A DNA stretch of 60,000 bases from assembly GCF_026151205.1 (NCBI RefSeq), contig NC_087079.1, positions 11,896,635-11,956,634 on the forward strand. The letters run 5' to 3'. The notes beneath the pieces were generated by a model that searched no databases, had not been told where the DNA came from, and saw nothing but the letters and a program-made list of their open reading frames with translations. The translations under genes and the position numbers were made by a program. Position 1 is the stretch's first letter. Every line of letters starts with the position of its first letter. The DNA comes from Bolinopsis microptera (taxonomy: Eukaryota > Ctenophora > Tentaculata > Lobata > Bolinopsidae). Below are positions 133-54,600 of the stretch, one piece after another.

Positions 133-3100
133 GACACAGTCACAGCACCGTACGGCTTATTAAAAGTCAATCAGAGGAGATAAAACAAGCTGCTGAAACT
201 GATGCGTCCAGCGAGACAGTAGCATCTGAGGTAACTCTCATAATTATTATAAACAGTGCTACCTCGTTATAACGCGGACCTCAAGCAGTTGTTTATTCTA
301 ATTATCTCCAGGTGCCCGGCGAGGAGACGCCGATAGCTAACCTCAAGTTAACTGTGAACGACAAGAAGAGCGCGGCTCGGTCCCCCTCCAAGATACCCTC
401 CGTAACAACGATCAGGTGCTCCACTCTCACTAAACACTCTTCCGGACAAGGCTGCATACTGGAGTTCAGGGTCCTCCTCAGATCTGCTAAATCTACTTCT
501 AGTGAGTATACTGGAGTTCAGGGTCCTCCTCAGATCTACTAAAACTACTTCTAGTGAGTATACTGGAGTTCAGGGTCCTCCTCAGATCTGCTAAATCTAC
601 TTCTAGTGAGTATACTGGAGTTCAGGGTCCTCCTCAAATCTGCTAAATCTACTTCTAGTGAGTATACTGGAGTTCAGGGTCCTCCTCAGATCTGCTAAAT
701 CTACTTCTAGTGAGTATAAGGGAGTTCAGGGTCCTCCTCAGATCTGCTAAATTTACTTCTAGTGAGTATACTGGAGTTCAGGGTCCTCCTCAGATCTGCT
801 AAATCTACTTCTAGTGAGTATACTGGAGTTCAGGGTCCTCCTCAGATCTGCTAAATCTGCTTCTAGTGAGTATACTGGAGTTCAGGGTCCCCCTCAGATC
901 TGTTAAATCTGCTTCCAGTGAGTATACTGAAGTTCAGGGTCTTCCTCAGATCTGCTAAATCTACTTCTAGTGAGTATACTGGAGTTCAGGGTCCTTCTCA
1001 GATCTGCTAAATCTGCTTCTAGTGAGTATACTGGAGTTCAGGGTCCTCCTCAGTTCTGCTAAATCTACTTCTAGTGAGTATACTGGAGTTCAGTGTCCTC
1101 CTCAGTTCTGCTAAATCTACTTCTAGTGAGTATACTGGAGTTCAGTGTCCTCCTCAGATCTGCTGAATCTTAAAATCTACTTCTAGTGAGTATACTGGAG
1201 TTCAGGGTCCTCCTCAGATCTGCTAAATCTACTTTTAGTGAGTATACGGGAGTTCAGGGTCCTCCTCAGATCTGCTAAATCTACTTTTAGTGAGTATACG
1301 GGAGTTCAGGGTTCTCCTCAGACCTGCTAAATCTACTTTTAGTGAGTATACGGGAGTTCAGGGTCCTCCTCAGATCTGCTAAATCTACTTCTAGTGAGTA
1401 TACGGGAGTTCAGGGTCTTCCTCAGATCTGCTAAATCTACTTCTAGTGAGTATACGGGAGTTCAGGGTCCTCCTCAGATCTGCTAAATCTACTTCTAGTG
1501 AGTAGTCGCGTGGCCAGTGTTTGCCGAGGAGGCCTAGATAAAATATTTCGATTTATACGTAAATGCAAGATGTGGTTTTACGTTCATTCTGAAAATGGCA
1601 CATTGAAATACCACTGCTGAACTATTGAAGTTTCGGAAAAGTTTCAGGCCAAACCCAGTTGTTAATAGTAATACCTTGTATTATCAGAAGAAAACACGCC
1701 GTCTAAAAAGAGGAGATGTGTAGAGGAATGGTACTCAGCTGAGCTAGTTGTACAGAATGATACCGGTACTACTGTCCTAGGTCAGTTCTTATAGTTCTTA
1801 TAGTTCATTTCTATCATTTCAGAGACTTTGCAGAACTATCTCCATATTTTCTATATTATTGTTAAAGATCACCCCCGCTTTATCAGGTGATGGTAGCTAC
1901 ACACTGTTCCTGCGACCTGTCGTCACTGATTCTTGGAAACCTTCACAAGTGTCCTGGGAAACTGTCTCTCCTAAAGAAGAAGAGTCGTTCATTAAATCAG
2001 ACGGATTGGAGGAGGACGACATTAACAACTGCTGCAGCATCTCATTCGACGTTAAGACGGATAGTTGCGATGTGAGCTCTCTGTCACCTAAGAAGTCACT
2101 GTCCCCTAAGAAAGCTAAGAAAGGGGTTGATGTGCCCTCACTGAAGTCTGAAGAAGCAAAAGGTATGTTCTTTATAATTTCTCAGCTTCCAATTACAGCT
2201 CATTTCCAAAAGTACCAATCGTGAATCGTCTTTTCTGAATTTTCTTCAAAAATCCCAAAATCTATTCATAAGATTAAATTGAGTAATATAAAATGACTAA
2301 TAAACCCATCAGGAGTGTTAATGTACAACTTTCTGTACAACGGTAACACTTTACAGCAGACAGAATGTCGGAAGAACAGAGTGTGTCCCTGGTGTTCACT
2401 AAACTGCAAAAAGTAACTATTAAACTTTAGGATTAATTTAACTGTCCTACCCAGATCATGGAATCAAATGTTTATAATTATAAATTAGAAGAATTCTACT
2501 TTAAAATTACTTTTATATTAGCGATTATATTTATCAGCAAGTAATATATTACCCCCCTCCCCCCTCACTATATACTATACTCAATGTTACAGGTTATACA
2601 ATTTACTAGAACACATAACTAGATGTCACCCTCGCTTCAAAGTAACTTTTATACCAGGTAATTTGCATTTTTAATGTTCTATATTATGCGGTGTAGTATA
2701 TTATAAAATTGTATATTTAGTTCCATGTTAAATTTAAGTTTCATTAACAATACAAATAAAGATGGTCCTATGTTGCTAGGTCTGAACGGGTTTGACGAGT
2801 TAGACGTTGAAGTAAACGAGCTGGTGAGTATGTCACATCTCCCTCGCCCCGATGAGATCTGTACTGTCCCTATATTTAGCGGTCCTAACAAACGTGAACC
2901 TTTCCAGTTACAGATGCTCGGATCGTGAGTATACCGCCGCATTATGACGGGGGGGGGGGGGGGGGGGGGGCTTGTGGTAGTGGAAAATAATTTTCGAAAT
3001 AATTTTTCGAAATAATTAGTTTGTCTAACTAATTAACGCCATTTTCCTAACAAGTCATTTTGTTGTAAAAGGCTTCAACAATTCCTGAGCCGTTATTTGT

Positions 3101-51600: not shown

Positions 51601-54600
51601 ACAGCAGATCGCTTAGCTCATCCTCCACGTACTCAATTACAATAGTGTTGGGTCCCGTTATCAGAGGATCTAGCGGCATCTTTACCTGTTACATTTGGTT
51701 ACTGTAATATGGTGGCATCTTTACCTGTTACATTTGGTTACTGTAATATGGTGGCATCTTTACCTGTTACATTTGGTTACTTTGATATGGTGGTATCTTT
51801 ACCTGTTACATTTGGTTACTTTGATATGGTGGCATCTTTACCTGTTACATTTGGTTACTGTAATATGGTGGCATCTTAACCTGTTACATTTGGTTACTGT
51901 AATATGGTGGCATCTTTACCTGTTACATTTGGTTATTTTGATATGGTGGCATCTTTACCTGTTACATTTAGTGATCTACTTCATTGATTGTGTTTTTAAC
52001 AGTTTAATCTATTTCTTTATAATCAAGAGAATGAGACTTTTTGCTAAACGTCTAGTCGTGACTGATCAAAATGAGACGTGACATAATCTTTTTAAGTGAG
52101 TGTGGCTTTGAGTGATGATATTTATTTAATACTATTCATAAGATTAGGATGTTCGAAATAATGCTTACAAAGAGTATTCTTTGCTCATCACTTGTAGTTG
52201 TCTGTAAGTCTCTAATAAAATCTTTCTCAGGACACACATTTTTTATTAATAAGGAAAGTAGTCTTAAATTATAGAGTGTGTAAAGAATTTGTGTTCATAT
52301 TCATTTTTAAACAAACAAAAAACAGTTTTAATTTCAGTTTGCCCATCAGTCCTATTGTAGGGTCATAAAGGAAGTATTTTCAAAGTTTTAGTGAATCGCA
52401 CAGAGGGTAATTTTAGAAACATTTATTGTGCTGTCAGGTAGGAATATTAACCTTCAACGGAGTTTAACGCAACTTTTACAGATGGAGATCATCGTGAATT
52501 TTACAGACGGAAGGCATGCCTTAACTTCTGATTTAATGATGCTGGGTAAAGTATGACAGGATTGTAAGTGCTGGAATTTCGGATTTCCTTGCTTATAAGA
52601 GTGCATAAATTTTATCTCCAGAAAGTTATTTGACATGCCTCTGTCGCGACAACTTCTAAACTGATTCCTAAAGCGATTTTGTGCCGTTACTGAGATGGTC
52701 ATTACTTCTAACCGTTTAAGAACTGAACCGTACCGCAGAAAGTCATTATGTGAGTATTTCCCTTGTCAGCTTTCTCGACACATACAATTATCTTCGCAAG
52801 TTCTTTGTCAATTCAATAACTCCAATCTCTATTTTCACAATCTCTATTTTCACAATCTACATTCTTACAATCTACATTCTTACAATCTACATTCTCACAA
52901 TCGATTTCACTACTATTATTTTACTCTCATCTATACAGTATAACCTCTATATACCGGTCCTCTCTGAGGAAACGAAAGTGCACGGTATAGAAAAAAAACG
53001 GTATCCCAATCCCAAGTATCTGTAGCCTCTCACATACCCTTCAGGACCTTATTAATACACGTATTGTGTCGTATTGTCATGGATTACATCTCCATATGTA
53101 CTCAAATCACCACCAAATGCGATATGAGCTATGATAAATCACATTTCTTGCACAACACGAGCTACAAGTTTGGGGAAAGAAGAGTATATCGAGGTATAGA
53201 GAGGCACGGTATAGAGAGGGTTAGACTGTATTGTCTAACCAAGTTACTAACTGAAAACTAAATCAACCTCTCCCGTTAAGCTAAGATGGATATATACGGC
53301 ATCTCCTCCATCTTCTGTTTCTTGGTAGGGACCCCCTTCAACATCATGTCCTACGCCTACTTCTACTCCAGGAAGCAGTCTTCTAAATCCATCCTCTTGA
53401 TCTACTCCCTGATCTCGGTAACAGACACCGTTATCTGCGTCTTGTCCGTGGCCCCCATGGTATCCTACATCCTGGCGGGGGGTCCTGGTATATTTGGAGG
53501 GTCTCTACCATGCACCCTGTGGGACATCCTCATGGAAGTGTTCGTCAGGTACTCCCTGATCTTGGTTGCCATGTTGAGTGTGTGCCGAGCCCGGGCTCTC
53601 ATATATCCTCTCCGTATCTTCAGCAGACAGAGGATAGGCTGGGTGGCTAAAAGTGTTCTCCTCCTCCTTCTCCTCCAGGAGATCCTACCTACCATTATAC
53701 TTCAGGAGTTCTCTATTTACGTTCCACAGCGGCTCTCCTGTCATTTCTTCGGCCTTGAAGACGTGTTTACCCCTCTTCAGACGATGATATTCAAGCTGGT
53801 AACCTTCTTCGGAGAGATAGGAATCCCCATGGTAGTAGGAGGTGTAACAGGGGGTCTCTGCCTCTACGTACTGGTGGTCAAAGCGGACAAATATGAGAGC
53901 GACGTGACGTCAGTGCAGAAAGAGAAGAAACGTGAAGCTACCAAGACAATCGTCATAGTAACGGGACTGTCTGTACTACTCAATCTTCCCATAGTCTGTT
54001 TTGCTGTAGCGTTTAGTCTGGAGGTGCGGATGAGTATGAGAACCATCCTGATCGGGGTGGATCTGGCCAGCAGTCTGGTGGTCTTGAACTCTGTTTTTAA
54101 CAGTTTAATCTATTTCTTTAGAATCAAGAGAATGAGACTTTTTGCTAAACGTCTAATTATGAATAAAGCGCCCTGCAGTCGAACAACTCCAGTCGTGACT
54201 GATCAAAATGAGACGTGACATAATCTTTTTAAGTGAGTGTGGCTTTGAGTGATGATATTTATTTAATACTAATCATTAGATCAGGATGTTCGAAATAATG
54301 CTTACAAAGAGTATTCTTTGCTCATCACTTGTAGTTGTATATAAGTCTCTAATAAAATCTTTCTCAGGACAGCAGGATGAAAAGAAAGCCTAACTTTTAA
54401 ACTTCATAAGGAGTCGGGACAACAAAGAAATCTCCTTACTCCTTACTCCTTACTCCTAACTCCTAACTACTAACTCCTAACTCCTTACTCCTTACTCCTT
54501 ACTCCTTACTCCTTACTCCTTACTCCTTACTCCTTACTCCTTACTCCTTACTCCTTACTCCTTACTCCTTACTCCTTACTCCTTACTCCTTACTCCTTAC

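Follow-up and report, generated by a model that had tools for sequence, protein, structure and literature searches.

Duplications and repeats that extend across intron-exon boundaries are already in print. In one described case, a duplicated segment that spans an intron-exon boundary and carries acceptor signals made a new intron from two copies (PMC4974935). Internal tandem repeats at exon-intron boundaries were found with Tandem Repeats Finder (TRF) in human segmental-duplication genes, and these repeats are partly spliced out (PMC2812944). The fill-in repair of DNA breaks (CST/Pol alpha-primase) yields small tandem duplications of tens of bases with little microhomology (PMC8355091). Here, we analyze a 60-kb stretch of contig NC_087079.1 from the ctenophore Bolinopsis microptera, referred to as the window, in which splice sites of SUZ12, Rab14-like, and laminin genes lie within tandem arrays, together with an independent sample of loci from the same genome. 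The original prediction for this stretch had placed at least six tandem duplications at exon edges, and the six that it listed were all found to be real, using TRF and gene models and, for the Rab14-like gene, reading by eye.

We tentatively favor, with somewhat less than even confidence, the reading that the seed duplications of these minisatellite-like arrays form more often within a few tens of nucleotides (nt) of exon-intron junctions than in other places, and that they survive where the outermost site can still be spliced. The arrays run head to tail with units of about 10-100 nt, as seen in one assembly.

The sample was assembled by searching the host genome (264.65 Mb, 232 contigs) with the Pfam families myosin, kinesin, dynein AAA_6, and Ras. 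The 72 loci were picked blind to repeats and represent 71 genes, since L002 and L005 belong to a single gene. Very long genes (e.g., C2:22503-22518 kb), intronless members, and several other matched genes were left out before the repeats were viewed, as were likely duplicates (e.g., C13:4981 kb, C51, C6:17135 kb, and C2:3930 kb); neighboring paralogues among the chosen loci (L050/L051 and L052/L053) may be non-independent. Exon edges were determined with a purpose-written spliced profile aligner, using splice-site weights learned on the window edges. A first alignment with a low intron cost (40 loci and 291 introns, with 14 of 96 arrays crossing a splice site versus 8.4 expected) was superseded by one with a higher intron cost. 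The resulting sample contains 309 introns, with a median length of 250 nt, and 133 non-exonic arrays with units of at least 10 nt.

The 118 arrays that are wholly intronic pile up beside the splice sites. With even placement over the free part of each intron as the expectation, an array boundary was found within 25 nt of the donor in 18 cases versus 7.3 expected (P 1.4e-4) and within 25 nt of the acceptor in 20 cases versus 7.3 expected (P < 2e-5). For both sides pooled, there are 38 such boundaries versus 14.5 expected. Per kb, there are 2.3-2.6 array boundaries within the first 25 nt of the intron, compared with 0.3-0.8 deeper in. The counts for myosin, kinesin, dynein, and Ras are 8 versus 3.6 (P 0.02), 12 versus 4.9 (P 0.002), 4 versus 1.3 (P 0.04; all on the acceptor side), and 14 versus 4.6 (P 1e-4), respectively. 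The excess persists when the TRF score cut-off is varied between 50 and 200, and it is present in AT-rich arrays as well as in the rest. Block-shuffled introns yielded about 5 array rows per replicate and, across three replicates, two rows near a donor and none near an acceptor.

Arrays that cross a splice site add to this pattern, and 53 of the 133 arrays, in 51 of the 309 introns, either cross a splice site or have a boundary within 25 nt of one. The tie between arrays and splice sites that the original prediction had suggested holds, in changed form, for crossing and abutting arrays taken together. For crossing alone, the sample is only slightly above chance: 15 of the 133 arrays, in 13 loci, cross a splice site versus 10.1 expected (P 0.07). 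By eye, 12 of these are clear and 3 are weak (L004, L061, and L072). In the crossing arrays of the sample, as in the window cases, the repeat unit holds exonic and intronic bases of a single splice site. By side, donors are crossed 12 times versus 5.27 expected (P 0.006) and acceptors 3 times versus 5.29, where the acceptor count excludes a row of L023 that keeps one false exon within its donor array. We do not claim a donor bias; sample and window together (the window has three donors and three acceptors) split 15 to 6.

The crossing arrays range from two copies to more than one hundred. The dynein gene L037 carries two copies of a 55-nt unit (53 exonic nt followed by gt) with zero mismatches, and the dynein gene L030 has 12 copies of a unit of about 63-65 nt that holds the exon end and the donor. 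The kinesin gene L023 has 52 donor copies of a 33-nt unit and, in a different intron, 112 acceptor copies of a 26-nt unit. Two other kinesin genes have a crossing two-copy array (L022) and a two-copy donor duplication together with an acceptor array of 24 sites (L019). A Rho-like gene (L062) has a donor array with at least 11 sites that runs to the end of the fetched stretch; it lies outside the aligned part and is not counted. Such arrays, with 20, 22, 52, or 112 near-identical sites, turn conserved genes into natural experiments on site choice, in which strength is equal and position alone varies.

In the window, TRF identified 39 arrays, and 103 exon edges were annotated from the reading frame and splice signals; laminin exon E29 and some SUZ12 exon ends were omitted as uncertain. 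The coordinates are collected in Table 1. The protein-consistent gene models place a splice site in or at each of the six arrays. The original prediction had these arrays beginning or ending exactly at the boundary; the units instead span it. For the laminin donor, TRF ends the array 14 nt within the intron; the copy that covers the donor itself can be recognized only by eye. TRF reports the Rab14-like duplication as a weak 22-nt row (22010-22084, score 65).

Table 1. Splice-site arrays, their host exons, and abutting intronic arrays in the window (a slash marks the splice site)
Feature	Position	Strand	Basis and remarks
SUZ12 exon S2, ends ...AAATCTACTTCTA/GTGAGT	312-501	+	Open frame; phase fits S1 and S3
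SUZ12 52-nt donor array, 20 copies (20.0 by TRF); 46 exonic nt + GTGAGT per unit	456-1504	+	TRF; 20 intact TAGTGAGT sites; unit = 1 mod 3; frame preserved via the 5'-most copy
SUZ12 VEFS 49-nt acceptor array, 22 copies (22.3 by TRF), ...TTCTTTAG/GCCGCTAGC...	10801-11934	+	TRF; 22 intact acceptor sites; frame preserved via the 3'-most copy
SUZ12 exon S10 (VEFS box), start within the last copy of the array	11914-12033	+	S9+S10 spliced translation matches VEFS-Box, E 2e-17
Rab14-like exon 2 donor, two copies; 47-nt unit 22090-22044 = 41 exonic nt + GTACTG; second copy 22043-22007, shortened to 37 nt, without donor	22007-22090	-	Read by eye; Ras match
Laminin acceptor array, 37 nt x 3.1, cttttcag/TGAAGATAACCCG; exon E34 start 36207	36192-36306	-	TRF; 3 intact sites; phase-consistent exon
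Laminin donor array, 25 nt, 5.0 TRF copies; partial first copy over E19 donor, last exonic base 47670	47531-47675	-	TRF 47531-47656; partial copy by eye; 6 donor-like sites by pattern
Laminin acceptor array, 39 nt x 7.6, aacag/GTAAAGATGCC; exon E17 start 51685	51675-51969	-	TRF; 8 sites
Intronic array from 11 nt inside E34 donor (abutting class)	35714-35931	-	
Intronic array from 7 nt inside E33 donor (abutting class)	36313-36383	-	
16-nt array from 19 nt inside E32 donor (abutting class)	36779-37091	-	TRF
18-nt array, end 13 nt before E10 acceptor (abutting class)	57403-57463	-	
16-nt array from first intronic base after E2 donor (abutting class)	59697-59746	-	

The spliced translations were matched in Pfam to Zn_SUZ12 (E 2.5e-19) and VEFS-Box for SUZ12, to Ras (E 1.9e-36, R1+R2) for the Rab14-like gene, and to EGF_laminin for a piece of laminin. 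The laminin exons are in phase at nearly all junctions, with a sole phase break at E12/E13, and exons 13-28 splice into an open frame of 852 codons and exons 30-42 into one of 1219 codons; the array-bearing sites of E17 (acceptor), E19 (donor), and E34 (acceptor) all fall inside these open chains. Five of the six window units (52, 49, 37, 25, and 47 nt) are not multiples of three, and one extra retained unit would shift the frame; at laminin E17, one extra in-frame 39-nt unit would introduce a stop codon. In all six cases, the models predict that the frame would stay intact only with the copy adjoining the exon in use. No wholly exonic array was found in the 50,664 coding nt of the 72 sampled loci. 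The frame breaks or stop in all six window cases and this absence lend indirect support to the earlier proposal that extra copies are tolerated since splicing hides them.

The original prediction had further called the overlap with splice sites unlikely by chance, which is not borne out within the window. In the null model, a unit of length u is placed randomly on the gene in any position that is not wholly exonic, and the probability of crossing is set by the number and length of the introns. The mean crossing probability per array in laminin and SUZ12 is 0.08, or 0.114 for units of at least 25 nt, and about 8-11% of arrays are therefore expected across an edge in these intron-dense genes. 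The expectation for laminin and SUZ12 is 2.3 of 29 arrays; TRF gives 4 (P 0.20), and the E19 case recognized by eye raises this to 5 (P 0.08). When units of at least 25 nt are taken separately, 1.5 of 13 are expected, and the corresponding counts are 4 (P 0.05) and 5 (P 0.011). Over the whole window, 5 of the 39 arrays contain an annotated edge. The window is where the pattern was first noticed, and it cannot serve as its own test. A unit of 40 nt in intron-dense genes has about a 1 in 10 chance of crossing an exon edge, and a few cases without a null model prove little.

Under the favored reading, the first event would be a short tandem duplication of about 20-65 nt, with little overlap at the join and of the kind that break fill-in repair produces, either close to a splice site or across it. 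When the duplication crosses the site, the gene models suggest that the copy nearest the exon would retain both the edge of the exon and a functional splice site, and that the remainder would become intron. Slippage or unequal exchange may then expand the arrays to the tens or about 100 copies that are found, and selection would remove wholly exonic duplications. Transcription- or splicing-linked DNA breaks are a candidate cause of the extra births near junctions. Among the two-copy arrays (20 rows listed), three that cross a splice site have a join overlap of 0-1 nt, in line with what fill-in repair of breaks would leave; the others overlap by up to 6 nt, and four values are negative (TRF gaps). 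Neighboring copies are more alike than shuffled copies in two of six arrays, the SUZ12 donor array and the array of L030. Outward growth of arrays up to the splice signal is disfavored as the cause, because about two-thirds of the abutting arrays (24 of 38) have three or fewer copies.

A real possibility, if an uncertain one, is that births are even along genes, that the exonic ones are purged, and that arrays near splice sites outlast the others since the deletions that would clear them also damage the splice signal. The number of crossing arrays is close to that from even placement, and sheltered survival of this kind would raise the density beside splice signals on both sides, as observed. 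Longer-lived arrays should be more diverged, yet the median copy identities are equal: 93.5% for near-edge arrays versus 92% for interior arrays (P 0.69), and 94% for crossing arrays (P 0.93). This lack of extra divergence near the edges favors more frequent births over longer survival, although homogenization could mask age and blur the comparison.

It is improbable that the arrays are retained because repeated splice or branch-point signals beside intron ends aid splicing. Among acceptor-abutting arrays, 12 of 20 hold branch-point-like motifs, versus 26 of 80 interior arrays (P 0.04 without correction, in one of six motif tests), and the splice sites of the long arrays are intact (20, 22, 12, 52, and 112 sites). 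However, the donor-like motif GTRAG is not enriched (2 of 18 donor-abutting versus 6 of 80 interior arrays), short arrays prevail among those that abut, and the second Rab14-like copy is without a donor.

An artefact of the gene models or the assembly is quite improbable. The alignment with low intron cost did invent micro-exons inside arrays, one such error persists in L023, and assembled array lengths can be wrong. However, the higher intron cost cleared most of the micro-exons and the pattern persisted, the window models retain long open frames, and the two-copy cases (L037 and L022) are independent of array assembly. Three sets of rows from the superseded alignment (L001, L019 4445-4766, and L026), with micro-exons invented inside arrays, were judged false by eye.

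That the abutting arrays formerly spanned the splice site, with the exon-bound copy since diverged, would account for a peak about one unit wide next to the site. This origin is very improbable because the arrays bear no likeness to the exon-plus-splice flank beside them; these flanks are no more like the adjacent array than are the flanks of other introns (Fisher P 0.61 for 18 on the donor side and 0.21 for 20 on the acceptor side). Finally, the creation of new introns from tandemly duplicated AGGT-containing segments that supply both splice sites, as the original prediction had proposed, is hardly tenable: some units do bear an acceptor and AG/GT by eye (e.g., SUZ12 10801-11934 and laminin 51675-51969), but none of the 309 sampled introns lies wholly within an array, every crossed intron runs past its array to an independent second site, the intron position is shared with sampled paralogues for 5 of 15 crossed introns versus 128 of 309 overall, and AGGT shows no excess in abutting arrays (0 of 20 acceptor-abutting, 2 of 18 donor-abutting, and 5 of 80 interior arrays, or 7 of the 118 wholly intronic arrays).

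Several results weigh against more frequent births near junctions. Crossing taken by itself is not significantly above chance. The excess for sampled units of at least 25 nt (10 of 33 crossing versus 5.0 expected, P 0.017) was obtained with a cut that was picked after part of the sample had been viewed, and units below 25 nt have no excess (5 of 100 versus 5.1 expected). The pile-up was spotted after the fact, and the split by family was done for that reason. The window does not clearly repeat it, with 7 boundaries versus 5.6 expected (P 0.31), made up of 6 versus 2.8 at donors (P 0.025) and 1 versus 2.8 at acceptors. A nearby copy was found for 8 of 616 30-mers centered on splice sites, versus 489 of 5323 intronic and 3 of 1182 exonic 30-mers, in a count of positions rather than events that weights long arrays by their length. 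The likeness of neighboring copies is absent in four of the six arrays tested, and growth by local steps is therefore not general. In addition, the exon edges of the sample come from our own aligner and from one species, with gene models alone.

In its stronger form, the favored reading becomes possible but doubtful. A junction-linked mutational process, probably one coupled to transcription or splicing, would raise the birth rate of tandem duplications several-fold within about 25 nt of splice sites; a considerable fraction of introns would bear arrays there, and in some genes the spliceosome would have to pick the outermost of dozens of identical sites. Should the excess next to splice sites reflect a birth bias, this would point toward DNA damage or repair linked to transcription or splicing, and intron ends would have a means of changing rapidly.

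Other features were noted around these arrays. In the laminin intron upstream of the E34 array (36229-36400), TTTATCAGG...TTTGT...AAAC is found at the donor and again just before the array, as if the donor had been copied too. A rhodopsin-type receptor is located in a laminin intron on the opposite strand (53280-54218, +), and its 3' end seems to be copied beside the E17 acceptor array (about 51975-52300 and 54080-54380); an open frame at 51674-52081 terminates in residues that nearly match the end of this receptor. A gene with a poly(A)-polymerase head (CCA-type) also lies in a laminin intron on the opposite strand (44232-45668, +). An 836-codon open frame in a laminin intron (38489-40999, -) has no Pfam match; by eye, it may be a Penelope-like reverse transcriptase. 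A 17-nt repeat resembling CCCCGATTTACCGC occurs in several separate short laminin-intron arrays (43687-43846, 49364-49431, and about 48940-49000), which are perhaps parts of a mobile element. Between SUZ12 exons S8 and S9 is a retrotransposon of the non-LTR (non-long-terminal-repeat) type (3620-6784, -), with a long open frame that matches RVT_1 and Exo_endo_phos_2, and a SURF4-like frame is nested in a SUZ12 intron (8815-9912, +). Elsewhere in the window are a recent 346-nt tandem duplication with 98% identity and an open frame of about 88 codons in each copy (12771-13468), and a degenerate 1.3-kb array of the AGG/GAGGAGGACT type (20069-21398). In the wider genome, single-frame Ras-family genes form a dense tandem cluster at C1:12.43-12.48 Mb. 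Of two glutamate-receptor reading frames compared with known proteins, L084 is closest to the iGluR structures of ML032222a, a Mnemiopsis protein, and L085 to kainate receptors of mammals.

Our literature search, for the collection and terms used, found no report of splice-site arrays in ctenophores, of conserved genes whose splice sites carry arrays of tens to about 100 copies, or of arrays that cluster at the very ends of introns. The Rogers-type AGGT duplication model, as told in PMC4974935, has in common with the present arrays a tandem duplication near splice-like signals and AGGT in some of the units. Its defining result, an intron within the duplicated segment, has no counterpart among the sampled introns. 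The fill-in duplications were demonstrated in mouse and human cells at breaks made by engineering, with no tie to splice sites in the portion of PMC8355091 consulted, and they would be a plausible seed for our two-copy cases. The boundary duplication presented in PMC4974935 is similar to ours in that it spans the boundary with acceptor signals and in that part of a former exon copy turns intronic. Unlike that case, up to about 100 copies lengthen one end of an existing intron here, donors are involved as well, and no new intron is seen. The repeats described in PMC2812944 belong to human paralogues of recent origin, for which RNA indicates alternative splicing and new introns were proposed. 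In contrast, the arrays reported here, known from DNA alone, are found in conserved single genes (SUZ12, dynein, kinesin, and Rab) and are biased to the first 25 intronic nt.

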